Source: a virus. Taken from it: a stretch of 64,000 nt of DNA. A program made the translations under genes and the position numbers. Each line of letters opens with the position of its first letter. Position 1 is the stretch's first letter. The stretch spans positions 62,001-126,000 of the IMG/VR virus record IMGVR_UViG_3300019458_000021. One strand, 5' to 3'. Positions 3,655-62,488 of the stretch are shown here, one piece after another. A model generated the notes under the pieces. It worked only from the letters and a program-made list of their open reading frames with translations, was not told the DNA's origin and searched no databases.

Positions 3655-6024
3655 TTAGAACTCTGAGTATGTCAGAACAATTGCGTTGATCGTTGCATCA
3701 GCCGCACCGGCACCGGTACCACCGCCATTATTCGCTCCACGCACAGTGATCGTGTTTGCACCACTCACATAACCGTTGTAAGTGAAACCTGCAGGAACTG
3801 TCGATGGAAGACCAAGTACGACAGGGTCGCCAACAACCGCACCGGTAACGGTAATCGTGTTTGTGCTGTCTCCAACCGCGCCGTCCACAATCGCACCAAA
3901 CGTCACACTTTGTGTGCCTTTGAATGCAGCAACGTTAAATGTGCGTGATGTTGTGATATCGCCACCGCCTGTCAGACCGACACCAGCCGTGAGGCCGACA
4001 CCAGAGTGATCAACGTGCTCATTTGCAACAAAGTTCATCAACGCGTCGTGATCGACGCCAGCTGGAAGAACGTTAGCTTCAATTGTGGCTGGACCATCAG
4101 TGTACACCAGCTCAACACTTGCTGTATCTGTCAATGTTGTGCCGACCGCATCTTGAGCTGCTTCTGCGAAGTCGGTAACTTGGGAAGAAGTAATCGCAAC
4201 CGCAACAGATGCTGCGGTTGTCAAACGACCCTGAAGATCGACTGAAAACGTTGCAATATTAGCAGCATCACCGTAAGAGGCAGTAATAACACCTGTTGCT
4301 GGTAAGTCGACATTTGGATTAGCTGCAACTCCGTTACCGTTCGTTACAGTAATTGTGCCACCGGTAGATGTTAAAGTGCGTGTTGCAACTGTACCAGCAC
4401 CGGTGCGTGCCACAAGGCCTGTCGTTGCAAGGGCTGCTACTGCATCAAGATCTGCATCCCACGCTTGAACTGTCACACCAATCGAAGCCGCCGTTAGAGC
4501 AGTCATCGGGCCCGGAGGACCACCAAATGTTGCCACAGGAGCACCTGCTACCATCATTGTCATGACGCCCGGAGGACCAAACGAAACACCTGTCGTTGGA
4601 TCTGCTGTTGACCACAATGCCATGCCTGGTGTTGATGCGTAGCCACTAAATGTTGTGATACCACCAGCATCAATACGAACTTTTTGAGCGCCAGCAATTG
4701 CAAAGCTAACTTCACCAGCGCCACTGTCGTACATGCCTTTTGTTGCATCACTTACAAATGTGTATGCTGGAAGAAGGGCCGTACCTGCTGCCAGAGCAAT
4801 CGTAGCACGATTAACCCACAATGCGCCATTGTATTGAAGGACGTTATTCGCTACAGGTGCTGTGATTGTTACATCCGTTAGGTCTGTCAATGCAAGGTTT
4901 TCTGATGTAAGGATTGGGAACGCCGATCCAACAACACCAACAAGCCACTGATCTGTACTCTCATCCCATTCAAGAATGGCATTTGGAGGACCACCACGAT
5001 CGACTTGTAGACCAGAGCTGGCAGGGTCGAATTGTACAAGAGAAATTGGCTGATCAACACCGTTGTCAACAGTTACAGTTCCTGTGAACGTTGCGCCTGT
5101 TAGGTTTGCCTTCAAAGCAAGCCCTGCTGCCAATTCTGCATCTGTTGCCAGTGCACTAAGGGCGATACCACCATCAGCAAGTGCCGTACCGGCACCGGCA
5201 ACAGTCACAACATTACCGTTTACGCCAACAAAATCGTCAAGTTTTGTTGCAATCGCAGCAGCAACTTCCGCATCAGTTGCAAGACCTGTCAATGGTGTGC
5301 CACTGTCAATTAGAGCACCACCAGCCGTGAGTGTTGGAACATTGCCAACAGTTGCACCACCAACAAGTGGAATGAATGAACCAGCAACAGCTGCGATATC
5401 AACGAAACCTATACCGTCATTTGTAAATTGCCACGTGTCTGTTGCTTCATTCCAACGGATGGAAACATCTAGAGAAGCACCTCGATCGACAGAAAACAAA
5501 GCATTTGCAGGGCCGGCAGCTCCCTTGTTCATGTAAAACTGTGAATTTGGTGTACCGTCAACATCGGCCTTCAATGCAAGAGCGTTGTTCATATCCGTAA
5601 AAGTTGGATAATTAACGAGGGCCGCAGTTGGATCTGCAACAACACGATTCAGTGGACGAACGTCATTGATCAACCCCGATGTGATCTGTGTTGTTGATGA
5701 AGACATATAAACCGCAGCCAAGGGCAAGTTGCCTGTTGGTGGTGCAGGGATCGAAGGAGCTGCAGCGGTCGTACCATGTGTCAGAACCACGGAAGCAGAG
5801 CTACTCAGAGAAACTAATGTCCAGCGATTGAGAGACCCTGGTGCCGGAATGGAGGGAGAATTACCACCTGGAAATTCTACAACTTCGTCATCAGCATTCC
5901 AAAAAGACCCGGCTCGGATCCTAACTGTCAAGTTTGGAATGTCTTGTGCAGTAACAGATAACGGCGCAAAGTTAGCACCAATTTCCTTGTCTGCTTCACC
6001 TTTGAGTGGAACAGAGTTTGACAT
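3655..6024 (-). CDS. tail fibre-type structural protein
   Basis: 789 residues from the ATG at 6024, chosen because AAGGAGA sits just upstream; a longer in-frame extension to 6165 lacks such a site. It has the low-complexity, beta-rich composition of phage fibres, with phrases such as HVDHSGVGLTAGVGLTGGGD and GGTITVTNGNGV. Two internal units resemble each other: DRGASLDVSIRWNEATDTW and DRGGPPNAILEWDESTDQW. The gene is a single-gene cassette on the opposite strand between two plus-strand operons, with its own late promoter motif (6066-6071) and terminator. It probably contacts the host surface; no receptor-binding tip can be identified. Confidence 0.75.
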   Translation of the reverse strand: MSNSVPLKGEADKEIGANFAPLSVTAQDIPNLTVRIRAGSFWNADDEVVEFPGGNSPSIPAPGSLNRWTLVSLSSSASVVLTHGTTAAAPSIPAPPTGNLPLAAVYMSSSTTQITSGLINDVRPLNRVVADPTAALVNYPTFTDMNNALALKADVDGTPNSQFYMNKGAAGPANALFSVDRGASLDVSIRWNEATDTWQFTNDGIGFVDIAAVAGSFIPLVGGATVGNVPTLTAGGALIDSGTPLTGLATDAEVAAAIATKLDDFVGVNGNVVTVAGAGTALADGGIALSALATDAELAAGLALKANLTGATFTGTVTVDNGVDQPISLVQFDPASSGLQVDRGGPPNAILEWDESTDQWLVGVVGSAFPILTSENLALTDLTDVTITAPVANNVLQYNGALWVNRATIALAAGTALLPAYTFVSDATKGMYDSGAGEVSFAIAGAQKVRIDAGGITTFSGYASTPGMALWSTADPTTGVSFGPPGVMTMMVAGAPVATFGGPPGPMTALTAASIGVTVQAWDADLDAVAALATTGLVARTGAGTVATRTLTSTGGTITVTNGNGVAANPNVDLPATGVITASYGDAANIATFSVDLQGRLTTAASVAVAITSSQVTDFAEAAQDAVGTTLTDTASVELVYTDGPATIEANVLPAGVDHDALMNFVANEHVDHSGVGLTAGVGLTGGGDITTSRTFNVAAFKGTQSVTFGAIVDGAVGDSTNTITVTGAVVGDPVVLGLPSTVPAGFTYNGYVSGANTITVRGANNGGGTGAGAADATINAIVLTYSEF

Positions 6025-6065
6025 AGGGTTTCTCCTTGAAAAGTCGCAATTATGTCGAGTGGGTG

Positions 6066-6140: not shown

Positions 6141-8852
6141 ATGAGCTATATTTCGGCAGCAACAATAGAAGACGACGTCATTGTGTGGGAGCGTGATGAG
6201 AACGGACAGAGAATCGAAACAGTTTACACAGCTCCTTACCTGTTCTACTACAACGATCCCAAGGGAAAACACGAAACAATCTACGGCGATAAAGTCTCTC
6301 GTGTAATTTGCACAAGCAAGCGTGACTTTGAAGATAAGGTTGGTCTCTATAAAGGCCGAGGACATACAGTTTATGAGACAGACATCGAGCCTCACTTCCG
6401 TGTGTTATCAACGGACTACTACAACAAACCTGCACCTAAACTTAACGTAACATTTTACGATATTGAAGTCGACTACGATCCAGCGTTAGGCTTTGCAGGG
6501 GTCGAAAATCCTTACGCAAAAATCAACTCAATGTCGCTATTCCATAAATGGTCACAGGAGCTAATCGTACTAGCTGTTCCTCCGGAGTCTGGATGGACGG
6601 AAGAACGGCTAATCGAAGAGATGACCAAGCAGGTTCCTGATGCACCGATCCCGAAAGAATACAAACTCACAATTATTCTTTGCAAAGAAGAGACGGAACT
6701 GCTCCTGAATTTTCTCGACCAGATAGAGGATTCAGACGTGTTGTGTGGATGGAACAGCTCAATGTTCGATTCACCATACACAGCAAAGCGACTTGAAAAT
6801 CGCCTGGGCAAACGTTACATGGCGAAGATGGATTTCAATGGAACACGACTTCCTTGGTTTAGAAAGGTTCCATCTCGAAAGATTCGCAACCGTGACGGTA
6901 CACCAAAGATCATCGGAACAACGCTTGAAACGGCTGGTCGGATCATGGCTGACTACATGGAGTTGTATAAGAAATACGAAGCGGGAGAACGAGCTTCGTT
7001 TAAGTTGGCTGCTATTGAGCAGGAGGTCGGTTTGAATCTTCCGAAACTCGAATACAAAGGAACCTTGCACAACCTCTACCGAAACAACTTTGCATTCTTC
7101 ATTCGATACAACATTCGAGACACCGAAATCCTTCACGGATTCGAACGTGTGCTTGGCTACGTTGAACTTGCAAACCAAATGTACCACTTGTCAACGGGTG
7201 TGTTCAAACATGTGACAGGAACGCTGAAGCTCGTAGAAGCATCAATTCTTAACTATTGCCATCATGTTGTGAATAAGGTAGTTCCGAATAGCGTCTCACC
7301 AGAAAACGATCGCCAAATTGATGGAGCTTTAGTCTTGTTCCCACAGATTTCCCTCCAAGAATTCACAGGCTCGATTGACATCAACTCTCTGTATCCAACA
7401 GCAATCCGCTCAATCAATATTTCCCCGGAAACACTCAAAGGCCAGTTTGATGAGTTCAATCGCGCTGTTGAAGAAATTCGCATGCGCTCGTTTGCAACAC
7501 TCACACTTCGACTTGAAACTGGTGAAGTGTTAACAAAAGAAGCTTCCGAATGGCGTGAGTGGCTTAAAGAACGGATGTGGTCTGTGTCTGGCTACGGGAC
7601 TGTGTTTGATCAAAACCAACAAGGAATTGTTCCGTCTATTCTTGCAGACTGGTACAAGCAACGTAAAGAGTATCAGAAACTGATGAACGAAGCTCTTACA
7701 CAAGGCGAGAAAGAAAAGGCTGACTACTATGATCGTTTACAGTATGTGTACAAGATTAAGCTAAACTCAGCCTATGGAGCTCTGACAAACATCAACTTCC
7801 GTTTCTTTGACTTGCGGTTAGGGGAGAGTGTGACAGCTACAGGTCGAATGATTCTCCGACATCAGTGTCGGAAGGTCGCTGAGTTCCTCGATGGAGAGTA
7901 CGACGTCGACTTTCCACAATATGAGACAATCAAAGATTGTAACGAGGCGAACAACAAAAAAGGTGTCCCACACGAACTTGCCTTGAATGGTCCAAAATTC
8001 AATGGTAACTTTATGTGCGAATCGGTAATTTACGGAGATACGGACAGCACATACTTTAAGACACACGCAACAAACGTTGTAGATGCAGTGAAAATTGCCG
8101 ATCGGGTTGCACTTGAGGTCAACAACTCGTACAAACCGTTTGTACAAGAGGTGTTTTTGTGTAATCCAGGCTTCGATGATCTCGTTAAGTGTGGTCGAGA
8201 AATTGTGACTGATAAAGGAATTTTTGTTGACAAAAAGCGTTACATTCTTCATGTTGTTGACAAAGAGGGTAAACCATCGGATAGTATGAAAGTCATGGGT
8301 CTTGATACCAAGAAGACCACGCTACCAAAGCACGTGGCCGACGAATTGAATAAATACGTCGGGATGTTCCTAAAAGGAATGCCTTGGGAACAAGTAGCAG
8401 AATTGATAGTCAACTATAAGGATACTCTTCGCAGTCAAGCTAAAGAAGAGATTCAGTTGATTGGATTACCGAAAGGGATCCAGGAAGTAGAAGACTATCA
8501 ACAGCAGTACAAGCGGTTGGGTGATCAAGTTCGATTACCTGGCCACGTGGCTGCAGCAATTCACTACAATTTGCTGTTGAAACATTTCGATGATCGTGAG
8601 AGTATGCCGATCATGTCGGGTATGAAGATCAAAGTCTTCTATCTGACACAGATGAACGGCAAGTTCAAAAGTATTGCTTTGCCAACTGACATCGAAGTTG
8701 TTCCACAGTGGTTTTTTGACAACTTTGAAGTAGACATAGATGCGCATATTGAGAGGTTGGTTGACAATCCGATGCAGAACATTCTAAAAGCAATCGGAAA
8801 GCGAACACCAACTCGACACGACTTGATGGTTGAAGACGTTTTTGGCTTCTAG
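6141..8852 (+). CDS. 43: DNA polymerase, family B (gp43)
   Basis: 903 residues, close to T4 gp43 (898). The proofreading exonuclease is marked by FYDIE (Asp107, Glu109). Polymerase motifs follow in order: motif A SIDINSLYP (Asp413), motif B KLNSAYG (Lys540) and motif C YGDTDS (Asp633, Asp635). It replicates the phage genome with the gp45-type clamp encoded downstream. The ATG at 6141 follows TAGGAG. It begins a plus-strand replication block driven by a sigma70-like promoter. Confidence 0.97.
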   Translation: MSYISAATIEDDVIVWERDENGQRIETVYTAPYLFYYNDPKGKHETIYGDKVSRVICTSKRDFEDKVGLYKGRGHTVYETDIEPHFRVLSTDYYNKPAPKLNVTFYDIEVDYDPALGFAGVENPYAKINSMSLFHKWSQELIVLAVPPESGWTEERLIEEMTKQVPDAPIPKEYKLTIILCKEETELLLNFLDQIEDSDVLCGWNSSMFDSPYTAKRLENRLGKRYMAKMDFNGTRLPWFRKVPSRKIRNRDGTPKIIGTTLETAGRIMADYMELYKKYEAGERASFKLAAIEQEVGLNLPKLEYKGTLHNLYRNNFAFFIRYNIRDTEILHGFERVLGYVELANQMYHLSTGVFKHVTGTLKLVEASILNYCHHVVNKVVPNSVSPENDRQIDGALVLFPQISLQEFTGSIDINSLYPTAIRSINISPETLKGQFDEFNRAVEEIRMRSFATLTLRLETGEVLTKEASEWREWLKERMWSVSGYGTVFDQNQQGIVPSILADWYKQRKEYQKLMNEALTQGEKEKADYYDRLQYVYKIKLNSAYGALTNINFRFFDLRLGESVTATGRMILRHQCRKVAEFLDGEYDVDFPQYETIKDCNEANNKKGVPHELALNGPKFNGNFMCESVIYGDTDSTYFKTHATNVVDAVKIADRVALEVNNSYKPFVQEVFLCNPGFDDLVKCGREIVTDKGIFVDKKRYILHVVDKEGKPSDSMKVMGLDTKKTTLPKHVADELNKYVGMFLKGMPWEQVAELIVNYKDTLRSQAKEEIQLIGLPKGIQEVEDYQQQYKRLGDQVRLPGHVAAAIHYNLLLKHFDDRESMPIMSGMKIKVFYLTQMNGKFKSIALPTDIEVVPQWFFDNFEVDIDAHIERLVDNPMQNILKAIGKRTPTRHDLMVEDVFGF

Positions 8853-39942: not shown

Positions 39943-41817
39943 ATGAATAACAAGAAGAAATCGACCAAGAAGGCTAGTGAGAAGCTGTCTTACTACCAGC
40001 GAAAAAAACTAGAACGTCTAAAAGAAGAACGAAGAGCTCTTCGTGAACAACGTAAGAAACAAAAAGAGAAAGAAGCGAAGAACCCTAAAATCGCAAAGCG
40101 CAAAAAATCAAAGAAACAGGGTCCTGACAAAGCCAAAGTCAAGCGCTCTCCTGTTACCAAGCCGAAAAAACAACCTCGTGTTAAAGCAGTTGAGATTCTG
40201 CCTCAACTCGTTGTAGTTGACCTTCCAGAATTGGAGGAAGAGAAACCCATCTACAATCCAACCGCCGCAAGTGCTCTTGCAGGTAAGAATATCTATCTGA
40301 ACAACAGGGACTTGCTTGCTGCTGTCAAAGACAGCAAGAAGAGGGGAGAGATGTCAGATAAGTTGGCTCGAATGCTACAGTTGCTTTGTGCCAAGTATGC
40401 AAAGAAAGGCAACTTTATCAACTACTGTGTTGATAGTGCCACACTAGCACTAACAAAAAGTGGTTGGAAAACACATCAACAAATGACAACGGACGATGAG
40501 ATTCTTTCGTATAACCTGGAAACACAACAGCTGGTATGGTCAAAAGTTCTTGAAGTGTTTCGAAATAACTACTCAAGTACGATGCACAAACTAGCAACAC
40601 AAGGACTCGATGCTCTAGTAACACCAAATCATAAGTTTGTTTCCATAGAACGTGGTTTGATTCCCGTTGAAGACATCATCTGCAATGAACACATCGTTTT
40701 AATGGGACAACCGGTGGCAGATGGTAGTATTATCTATCCCGATGATGTTGTGGAGCTTGTAGGATGGTGTGTTACTGAAGGACACTACAGCACTAAATCT
40801 AAAAAGCGACACTCGATACAGATTTCCCAAAAACAAGGAGCCAAAGCTAACCGAATCCGTGAACTGTTACAGTCACTTGCTATTCCCCATAAGGAATATC
40901 TGAACAAACAGGGGATTATTCTCTTTAACTGTACAGGCGTCTGGATATCAAAAATACATCAAACAATTGCTCCGTCTCGTGTACCTGCATGCGAATTTCT
41001 TTTAGACCTTATTCAAACACAACGACTGTTACTTATCAAAACTATGGTGGCTGGAGATGGATGGATGCGACCATCAGGAGGGATGTCATACGTGCAAAAG
41101 TCCCCCGAACATATTGACGCATTCCTAATGCTCTGTACATTGGCAGGTCAGACTGTTTCTGTCACACCAATGACATACAAAACACCTACCAGTCGAAAAA
41201 ATCCCAATGGCGGTGTTAGCGATGTACTCAGCGTGAACATTTATAGTGAACCTAAAACAACATGTCGTGCGGAGTGGATTGACTTTCATGGTGGAAAGCA
41301 AACAGCTGGCGGTCGCAGGAACGACAAACCGAACCTACCCACCGAGCAATACACCGGACAGATATGGTGCCCACGGACTGAGTATGGAACTTTTGTCGCT
41401 CGTCGTGGCAAGTATATCTACATCACAGGGAATACGTACAATGACGACATGCAAGGGTATGCAATGATGATGCTTGTTCGGACGTGGAACAGTTTCGATC
41501 CTGAACGTAGCGAGAACGCATTTGCATTCTATACACAGTGTATCAAGAGTTCGTTCATTCAATATCTCAACCAAGAGAAACGACAACGAACAATTCGTGA
41601 TATGATGCTTGTCGATCAAGGTCTCAATCCTTCTTTCAGTTATGAAGGTGAGGGCAGTGATCAACATATTCTTGAGGATGAACAGGACTTTTATGCGCAG
41701 AAACGTGCAGCTGATCTGTTAACACGACTTCCTAGAGAATACGAAGAGGGTTCGACAGATGTTGACAGAACCCCCTCGGAACCAGATAATGTTGAGTCTA
41801 ACAATACTGCCAGATAA
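39943..41817 (+). CDS. 55: late transcription sigma factor gp55, interrupted by an intein
   Basis: 624 residues as encoded; removal of the intein (162-497) leaves 288. Extein text fits T4 gp55 (185): YLNNRDLLAAVKDSKKRGEMSDKLARML before the intein and NDDMQGYAMMMLVRTWNSFDPER, then NAFAFYTQCIKSSFIQYLNQEKRQ after it. A Lys/Arg-rich extension of about 85 residues precedes the sigma core and has no counterpart in T4. gp55 directs host RNA polymerase to TATAAATA late promoters with gp33 and the gp45 clamp. The ATG follows AAGGAAGG. Confidence 0.9.
   Translation: MNNKKKSTKKASEKLSYYQRKKLERLKEERRALREQRKKQKEKEAKNPKIAKRKKSKKQGPDKAKVKRSPVTKPKKQPRVKAVEILPQLVVVDLPELEEEKPIYNPTAASALAGKNIYLNNRDLLAAVKDSKKRGEMSDKLARMLQLLCAKYAKKGNFINYCVDSATLALTKSGWKTHQQMTTDDEILSYNLETQQLVWSKVLEVFRNNYSSTMHKLATQGLDALVTPNHKFVSIERGLIPVEDIICNEHIVLMGQPVADGSIIYPDDVVELVGWCVTEGHYSTKSKKRHSIQISQKQGAKANRIRELLQSLAIPHKEYLNKQGIILFNCTGVWISKIHQTIAPSRVPACEFLLDLIQTQRLLLIKTMVAGDGWMRPSGGMSYVQKSPEHIDAFLMLCTLAGQTVSVTPMTYKTPTSRKNPNGGVSDVLSVNIYSEPKTTCRAEWIDFHGGKQTAGGRRNDKPNLPTEQYTGQIWCPRTEYGTFVARRGKYIYITGNTYNDDMQGYAMMMLVRTWNSFDPERSENAFAFYTQCIKSSFIQYLNQEKRQRTIRDMMLVDQGLNPSFSYEGEGSDQHILEDEQDFYAQKRAADLLTRLPREYEEGSTDVDRTPSEPDNVESNNTAR
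40426..41433 (+). mobile_element. intein with LAGLIDADG-type homing endonuclease inside gp55
   Basis: 336 residues (162-497 of the precursor). It begins at Cys162 (CVDSATLALTKSGWKTHQQM, splicing block A), has block B TPNHKF with His230, and ends ITGN with Asn497 followed by Thr498 as +1 nucleophile. The penultimate residue is Gly rather than the usual His. Two dodecapeptide-like endonuclease motifs are present: VELVGWCVTEGHY (Glu279) and LIKTMVAGDGWM (Asp372). Homing into intein-free gp55 alleles is predicted. The host gene stays in frame on both sides. Confidence 0.92.
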
Positions 41818-42538
41818 AACCGCCAGCGGTTTTTGATTTACCACGACAACATTCACTAATGTTATGTAACATTACACCTGTTGCATGTTGTGCGGCTGTT
41901 AGTGATCGAAACGTTCTAATTAGAATACCATCAAGTGATAATTGCCGAACTGTGCGAAAATATTTCTTTGAGAAAATCGGAGGCGAAGATCCATAATAAC
42001 ACCATAAAAAACCACCCGCCGATCTTCTCTTTCCCTTGCAACACTGACTGATGTACGAGGCGTTTGCTTTCGTCACTTCACTTGCCAATTTGCATGACGA
42101 GAAACTTGCAAGCAACTTTCCGTCAAGCGAATATTGCGAAACTGGTTTCTCTATGATCGGCAAATATCCACGTTTTCCTTTCATCTTCGTACTTAGGATT
42201 TTGCGTCGAACATTAGTCCACGCGGTAGAGTTTCCTTCACCACCTTCAGTCAGATTACATAGAATACCGGTGTGATTTATCAATCGCCCGTAGTAACTTA
42301 TCAGTTCTTTCTCTTTTTGAAAAGCCTCCGCTTCACTTACATTAATTAAAACTTTTTCGTATACAGGCTTCTTTCCTCGTTGATAGAGCTTACATAACTT
42401 ATTTTTCAACAAAGGATTTGTCAATCGACTTCGCACACGATTATGCTCGTACATACGCGTTCCTGAACCTTTACCTACGTAGAAAGGTTGTCGCGAATCC
42501 GGATCTATAATACAATACGTGTAGAAATTTCTATTCAT
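41798..42538 (-). CDS. GIY-YIG homing endonuclease with NUMOD-type repeats
   Basis: 246 residues. The N-terminal nuclease has FYTYCIIDPDSRQPFYVGKGSGTRMYEH (the GIY-YIG variant YTY...YVGKG with Arg28) and a later Glu in EAFQKEKELISYYG. Two C-terminal NUMOD1-like DNA-binding repeats follow: VSQYSLDGKLLASFSS to AGGFLWCYY, and VRQLSLDGILIRTFRS to AGGFIWQYC. It is a free-standing mobile endonuclease lying opposite and 20 nt overlapping the 3' end of gp55. The ribosome binding site is weak. Confidence 0.88.
   Translation of the reverse strand: MNRNFYTYCIIDPDSRQPFYVGKGSGTRMYEHNRVRSRLTNPLLKNKLCKLYQRGKKPVYEKVLINVSEAEAFQKEKELISYYGRLINHTGILCNLTEGGEGNSTAWTNVRRKILSTKMKGKRGYLPIIEKPVSQYSLDGKLLASFSSCKLASEVTKANASYISQCCKGKRRSAGGFLWCYYGSSPPIFSKKYFRTVRQLSLDGILIRTFRSLTAAQHATGVMLHNISECCRGKSKTAGGFIWQYC
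41816..41833 (+). terminator. probable terminator after gp55
   Basis: Stem AAAACCG/CGGTTTT with loop CCAG and a run of T, starting in the gp55 stop codon; it overlaps the 3' end of the convergent GIY-YIG gene. Confidence 0.5.
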
Positions 42539-42562: not shown

Positions 42563-42594
42563 CCGTAATGAATGGTATTTATAAGGAGACTGCC

Positions 42595-61954: not shown

Positions 61955-62488
61955 TTGAAACTCAACACTCAAACATTCATTGAACGAGCGCGCCAGGTTC
62001 ACGGCAATCGCTATGATTATAGCAAAGTCGAGTACAAGCGCAGCACTGAAAAAGTCAAGATCTTTTGTCCCTTACATGGTGCGTTTTTACAAGCTCCGGA
62101 GAATCACGTTAACCAGAAGCAGCATTGTCCGAAGTGTGCCAATCTTCGTAAAGGAAAGCATGAACGATATAGTTTTCAATGGATGCAACAACGTCCGGAA
62201 CGTGCTTATGCACCTGCCTTGTTGTATGTTGTCGACGCTGGCGCTTACATTGAACTGGGAATAAAAACGACAAGCGTAATGCCTATGAAACACAAGCTGT
62301 TACACTTGCTTTACCTGTCTCTCAAAGATGCGTATCTGCTCCAGGACAAAATTGAAAAAGCACTTGAGAGTCATCGCCACGAGACGTATGATATTTACGC
62401 TGAAAAATCAAAGCGTTGGAACAACAAAAAACATGTACTCGAAACTCTGCAGGAAATTTTACCGAAACCCGAGTACCCTTATAAATAA
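61955..62488 (+). CDS. DUF723-type protein with degenerate C-terminal domain
   Basis: 177 residues from a TTG at 61955 (MKLNTQTFIERARQVHGNRYDYSKVEYK). One DUF723 unit (HG.F.QAPENHVNQKQHCPKC) resembles the two units of the gene at 19064-19786. The C-terminal half (ALLYVVDAGAYIELGIKTTS) keeps the outline of a GIY-YIG start but lacks a clear catalytic Arg and later core. It may be a decayed homing endonuclease or a DNA-binding remnant. Inserted between two structural genes. Confidence 0.65.
   Translation: MKLNTQTFIERARQVHGNRYDYSKVEYKRSTEKVKIFCPLHGAFLQAPENHVNQKQHCPKCANLRKGKHERYSFQWMQQRPERAYAPALLYVVDAGAYIELGIKTTSVMPMKHKLLHLLYLSLKDAYLLQDKIEKALESHRHETYDIYAEKSKRWNNKKHVLETLQEILPKPEYPYK
62480..62487 (+). 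promoter_or_regulatory. late promoter, exact TATAAATA
   Basis: TATAAATAAG, identical to the T4 late consensus TATAAATA, 36 bp before the ATG at 62523. Confidence 0.75.

Follow-up and report, generated by a model that had tools for sequence, protein, structure and literature searches.

A class 1 intein with a LAGLIDADG homing endonuclease in a T4-type late sigma factor gene, gp55

A gene for the late sigma factor gp55 is interrupted in frame by a 336-residue insert, which is confirmed as a class 1 intein with a two-motif LAGLIDADG homing endonuclease. The gene lies in the window, by which we mean the whole 64,000-nucleotide stretch analysed here (positions 62,001 to 126,000 of IMG/VR record IMGVR_UViG_3300019458_000021). 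The reading that we favour, with a probability of roughly 0.92, is that a mobile, bifunctional class 1 intein invaded a T4-type gp55 gene between the codons of what are now Tyr161 and Thr498 of the precursor, that it splices itself out of the protein, and that it spreads by homing. Judged from its sequence, the intein of the window is real and is probably active.

In the proposed cycle the entire gene would be translated as one precursor, from which Cys1, the Thr and His of block B, Cys F:4, Asn336, and the +1 Thr would excise the intein and ligate the two halves of gp55. The LAGLIDADG domain would cut intein-free gp55 genes carried by co-infecting phages, at the conserved insertion-site DNA, and recombination repair would copy the intein into the cut allele. 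The site would serve the element as a safe harbour, being highly conserved and tolerating just precise splicing or precise deletion, because imprecise loss would break the RNA polymerase-binding sigma region.

The interrupted gp55 gene and its insert

The precursor ORF occupies 39943-41817 of the window on the plus strand (ATG at 39943, stop ending at 41817) and encodes 624 aa. Its N-extein (gp55 residues 1-161; 39943-40425, +) begins with a Lys-rich low-complexity head, continues into a sigma region 2.1-like part whose last residues are NFINY, and aligns with intein-free relatives and with residues 8-63 of T4 gp55. The C-extein (residues 498-624 plus the stop; 41434-41817, +) is likewise supported by relatives and by T4 gp55, and PHROG 234, 'late sigma transcription factor', matches it (residues 488-580, E=8.5e-18); its first residue, the +1 nucleophile Thr498, stands where the clamp-binding helix begins. 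Searched as a profile, the excised extein matches T4 gp55 (PDB 7d7c chain F) with E=1.1e-18 in an alignment that crosses the splice junction, and homology of the sigma region 2 domain to gp55 across the junction is seen with both PDB 7d7c and PHROG 234. These sequence comparisons confirm the interrupted ORF as a T4-type late sigma factor gp55, and counting along the profile alignment places the insertion point at Tyr63/Thr64 of T4 gp55 (here and below a slash marks the splice junction). The initial annotation, which had read an intein in the gp55 frame and predicted that residues 1-161 and 498-624 would align to gp55 across Y161-T498, is borne out, and the coordinates and junction residues that it gave (Cys162, Asn497, +1 Thr498) are exact. 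A single gp55 was found in the 237-kb record, which may be incomplete. Judged by gp55 (49%) and the major capsid protein (57%), the cultured phage nearest to the host phage is Xanthomonas phage XacN1, whose gp55 is without intein.

The intein itself (Cys1 to Asn336; 40426-41433, +) is a class 1 Hint domain with a nested LAGLIDADG endonuclease, as judged from Pfam, a structural model, and 60 distinct alleles that are described below. Cys1, the N-terminal nucleophile at block A:1, is Cys162 of the precursor (40426-40428, +) and is Cys in 60/60 alleles; the terminal Asn497 is encoded at 41431-41433 and is followed by the +1 Thr498. Block B reads TPNH (40621-40632, +), with Thr B:7 and His B:10 invariant in 60/60. 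The homing endonuclease domain, delimited approximately by LAGLIDADG_3 and Foldseek, covers intein residues 101-285 (40726-41280, +), and both of its LAGLIDADG motifs end with an acid in the window: the first, VELVGWCVTEGHY (40750-40788, +), with Glu118, which is Glu in 57/60 alleles, and the second, LLLIKTMVAGDGW (41026-41064, +), with Asp211, which is Asp in 59/60. Blocks F and G, IWCPRTEYGTFVARRGKYIYITGN (41362-41433, +), contain Cys F:4, Gly G:6, and Asn G:7, again invariant in all 60. The features claimed for the insert from the letters (block A, block B TPNHKF, two LAGLIDADG motifs, and the +1 Thr) are thus all present.

A profile search of residues 162-497 matched both Pfam Intein_splicing (PF14890; E=6.7e-7, 29.7 bits, below the curated cut-off of 35.8) and LAGLIDADG_3 (PF14528; E=1.1e-4, 22.8 bits, just above the cut-off of 22.5). 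Sequence searches of the PDB with the single intein gave weak matches (best E=0.011), and a five-row profile reached 2e-5. The relation to solved structures is settled by the fold search: an AlphaFold model of the intein, built from an 11-row alignment (pLDDT 88.9, pTM 0.89), retrieved with Foldseek the TliVMA intein (E=2.4e-13), PI-PfuI (3e-11), PI-SceI (4e-10), and then I-DmoI. The model of the 624-aa precursor is weaker (pLDDT 75, pTM 0.61), and no claim is based on it.

Assignment to class 1 follows from Cys1, the Thr and His of block B, Cys F:4, the C-terminal Asn336, and the +1 Thr498; it agrees with the Hint fold predicted by the model and its matches to solved inteins, and with an in-frame insert that is absent from homologues (L009, L010, L028, and others) and leaves a seamless extein. 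The penultimate His is absent, Gly standing in its place in 60/60 alleles; such a His is usual in class 1 inteins and is not a strict requirement. Class 3 was considered on account of Cys F:4 and Thr G:5, and rejected since Cys1 is present and B:12 is Phe and not Trp. Trp occurs at B:12 in just 1/60 distinct gp55 inteins, where Cys1 stands alongside the complete Trp/Cys/Thr-type set, so that marks of both classes are mixed. At F:4 of ordinary inteins, Cys ranks second in frequency (PMC4031507).

Convergent with gp55, and overlapping the last 20 bp of its 3' end, is a gene for a free-standing GIY-YIG homing endonuclease that has NUMOD/I-HmuI-like repeats (window 41798-42538, -). A perfect TATAAATA precedes the start of this endonuclease gene by about 40 bp (42576-42583, -). 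Between gp55 and gp47, relatives differ in their nuclease-like ORFs, which are unrelated to one another: the GIY-YIG gene in the window, an ORF at 7763-8803 (+) in L005, and another at 4393-6057 (+) in L021, the latter two endonuclease-like by eye. In L003 the gap is empty. The gp55-gp47 gap is a hot spot for free-standing endonuclease genes.

A family of gp55 inteins at one site

A scan of IMG/VR with the gp55-intein profile returned at least 338 relatives, the best 80 of which were kept. All 80 of these have gp55-like exteins and the identical insertion site, between Tyr and Thr or Ser. Together with Synechococcus phage B23, the best 80 of the 338 comprise at least 60 distinct gp55 inteins of 323-345 aa; the IMG/VR counts are lower bounds. 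Seven residues, C1, T66, H69, W314 (F:3), C315, G335, and N336, occur without exception in the 60 distinct inteins. At the junction, position -1 is always Tyr, and +1 is Thr in 48 alleles and Ser in 12. Both endonuclease acids are kept in 57/60; the first acid is lost in L119 and in L122, and both are lost in L164, losses that fit the homing cycle as expected.

Intein-free alleles are frequent in near relatives. The uninterrupted gp55 reads NFINY followed directly by SYNEDMQGYAMMM in L009 and NFASY followed directly by TYNDDMQGYAMMM in L010, and the site is empty in these two and in most gp55 relatives; occupancy was 3/57 distinct gp55 in one biased sample, a figure that is indicative only. 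Among cultured phages, 740 gp55 matches in 50,697 records included an intein of this family in B23 only, and a scan of GTDB genomes with the intein profile found no relative. We found no intein in gp55 or in any late sigma factor reported in the open-licence literature, which is not proof of priority. The gp55 gene is a new and widespread intein host gene and site, apparently unreported, the mechanism being ordinary. With it, the list of essential proteins invaded by inteins gains the sigma factor of late transcription, which switches on the virion genes; these inteins are common in uncultured T4-like phages and nearly invisible in cultures (1/740 records), and in annotation an intein-bearing gp55 will be missed or named hypothetical.

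Chance and assembly error are excluded, since alleles at this site recur across many contigs and in the genome of an isolate, B23. The source is a metagenome-derived virus record, which might favour an assembly chimera or a misread gene with no insert in gp55; however, a second assembly (L002) contains the gene at 100% identity, the contigs with same-site alleles are independent, and we regard the probability of such an artefact as negligible.

Inteins and exteins have diverged to different extents. Between the window and L003 the inteins share 92% DNA identity with dS 0.27, against 78% and dS 1.7 for the extein core, whereas L005 has a closer extein (90% aa) but an intein of 73% aa. The pattern of similar inteins in divergent exteins recurs in L156/L157 (intein 95%, extein 73%) and L124/L130 (97% and 81%), and also in L156/L163 and L132/L135; across such pairs the inteins are 90-97% identical in DNA and the exteins 70-81% identical. 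The reverse case is L159/L177, with exteins 98% and inteins 59% identical in amino acids. In ten close pairs intein dS was mostly 0.1-0.8, against an extein dS of 1.3 or saturated. This discordance argues that the gp55 intein is actively homing, the cutting itself being a step that we infer from the sequences. Intein and extein distances are nonetheless correlated overall (Spearman 0.76), so most transfer is between related phages; the trees of the exteins were built on about 130 columns. In the exteins beside the window and L003 inteins no co-conversion tract is visible, near flanks being no more alike than distant ones, so that any such tract has either been eroded or covered very little sequence. 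The homing cycle can be studied on this family as it occurs in nature, its single site offering many alleles in the filled, empty, and decaying states.

The endonuclease is under purifying selection: its dN/dS was 0.06-0.37, mostly 0.1-0.2, in the ten pairs, and dN/dS is low in the splicing part as well. These values bear on whether the insert has instead decayed, splicing having been lost so that the gene is dead or works as a fusion. The noncanonical penultimate Gly, the lack of a block F His, and the weak match to the Pfam intein model are what such decay might leave, and the 3/60 alleles with a lost acid show that endonuclease decay does occur in the family. We nevertheless judge decay of the window insert to be highly improbable, given that the splicing residues are all invariant in 60/60 alleles, no stop interrupts the frame, both parts have a low dN/dS, the window copy keeps both acids, and gp55 is, as established, essential in T4.

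Other inteins were seen in these phages. The SbcC-like gp46 carries one inside the P-loop motif GxNGVGK/T in L007 (6836-9541), L009 (7576-8595), and L018 (5742-7013), with a class 3 signature by eye (Ala or Phe at position 1, NHLW, a block F Cys, THN, and +1 Thr). The window's gp46 is empty at the P-loop site, and L009 has the gp46 intein and no gp55 intein. Outside the window in the same genome, a second intein ending LHSN/S lies in the G000:C1:172390 region (L012, 1090-2913), in a gene that adjoins a nucleotidyltransferase-like fragment. A 1935-aa ORF at G000:C1:50461-56265 (-) (L280), also outside the window and by eye an apparent ribonucleotide reductase, contains three apparent inteins, one of them a mini-intein ending FIHN/C, and the phage record therefore holds about five inteins.

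The insertion site and late transcription

In the T4 complex, E70, D74, and E77 of gp55 helix H3 dock on the clamp helices of the RNA polymerase beta-prime subunit (PMC7892883), and the intein is inserted at the start of this docking helix. A 336-residue domain at that position should block RNA polymerase binding until it is removed, so the precursor would be expected to have no activity before splicing. Given the position of the site against the docking helix, and the single gp55 found in the record, it is reasonable to infer that late transcription should need splicing.

The host looks like a user of T4-type late promoters, although the evidence is suggestive only. The window contains 33 copies of the motif TAAATA where 17.5 would be expected, a count reached in 0 of 100 shuffles. 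The motif lies within 60 bp upstream of 13/33 ORFs of at least 200 aa, against 5/33 for the reversed motif; among the genes with a copy just ahead of them are those for the portal and the head-tail adaptor. For the exact T4 late promoter, TATAAATA, the excess is slight (3 against 0.66 expected). These TAAATA sites are probable T4-type late promoters. On both strands of the window, TAAATA sits 15-47 bp upstream of many ORF starts.

The penultimate Gly had been expected to slow C-terminal cleavage in place of His. As a general rule this is contradicted by the presence of Gly in all 60 alleles and by experiments on a related intein: the Bethlehem RDF intein, whose native penultimate residue is Gly, splices to completion, and its change from Gly to His slowed the reaction, so that about 50% splicing needed more than 5 h (PMC5050341). 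Phage class 1 inteins are often without the penultimate His (PMC5050341). By this analogy, the expected effect of Gly is not supported and may be reversed. Both of the usual assisting histidines are absent from the window intein, at G:6 and, by eye, at F:13, so Asn cyclisation must get other help; phage homologues that end in the same way are able to splice (PMC5050341).

It had also been suggested that splicing acts as a timing or condition sensor. On such a reading the splicing rate would be tuned or conditional (on redox state, metal, or temperature), and the intein would time or gate late transcription after translation. In favour of this, the protein concerned switches on the late genes, the record yielded a single gp55 copy, two cysteines of the catalytic site, C1 and C315, are present in 60/60 alleles, and conditional splicing is described for mycobacterial DnaB inteins (PMC6195587). 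However, intein-free gp55 is common in near relatives and in cultured phages, the intein appearing in 1/740, so no gate is needed; Cys at F:4 is commonplace in ordinary inteins (PMC4031507); the Gly ending is a family trait and not peculiar to the window phage, and a homologous intein that has it splices completely (PMC5050341); and horizontal movement with an intact endonuclease explains upkeep without regulation. We see no support for a sensor and think it unlikely, the data fitting a homing element that has spread through gp55 genes; such an element, in a place where imprecise loss kills, explains all that was observed. It is quite unlikely, too, that the gp55 intein family is kept partly since slow or conditional splicing brakes the early-to-late switch, with C1 and C315 as a possible thiol switch. 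Since in vitro assays of gp55 function with E. coli RNA polymerase are available, intein timing of a viral programme is directly testable.

Relation to known systems

The closest known system is gp289 of Synechococcus phage B23 (MN695335, QGT54902.1), which, like the window, has an intein at the same gp55 site. The B23 intein is 340 aa long and 42% identical to that of the window, with Cys1 and a TGN ending; it differs in its +1 Ser and in residing in a cyanophage whose gp55 core is about 24% identical to that of the window. The record names gp289 a 'hypothetical protein' with the note 'phage T4-like gp55', the intein being unmentioned.

Beyond gp55, homologous class 1 inteins are found in the RDF (metallophosphoesterase) of mycobacteriophages, as in Bethlehem gp51 (25% over residues 1-164, E about 1e-7). 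The SargentShorty9 RDF intein resembles the window intein in its VWC block F and its TGN/S ending, which reads HLTGN/S in full. The RDF intein splices in a reporter (PMC5050341) and differs from the gp55 intein in host gene and site; moreover, its penultimate-Gly chemistry has been tested experimentally, whereas the window intein is known from sequence and a model. The next-closest inteins are in the portal, TerL, methylase, or unnamed ORFs of actinophages and soil phages (Gordonia phages Belphegor, Hail2Pitt, and GordTnk2; GX15bay; Pinkcreek; RedBird), host genes that differ from gp55. The portal, TerL, and methylase inteins are 24-29% identical over the whole intein and share with the window intein the WC block F, ARR, a TGN ending followed by Ser or Thr, and a two-motif LAGLIDADG endonuclease. 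Finally, TliVMA, PI-PfuI, and PI-SceI have the same overall fold as that predicted for the window intein, a Hint domain with a nested LAGLIDADG endonuclease (Foldseek E 1e-13 to 1e-8), but differ in their 8-15% sequence identity, in their VMA and RNR hosts, and in the penultimate His of the canonical forms.
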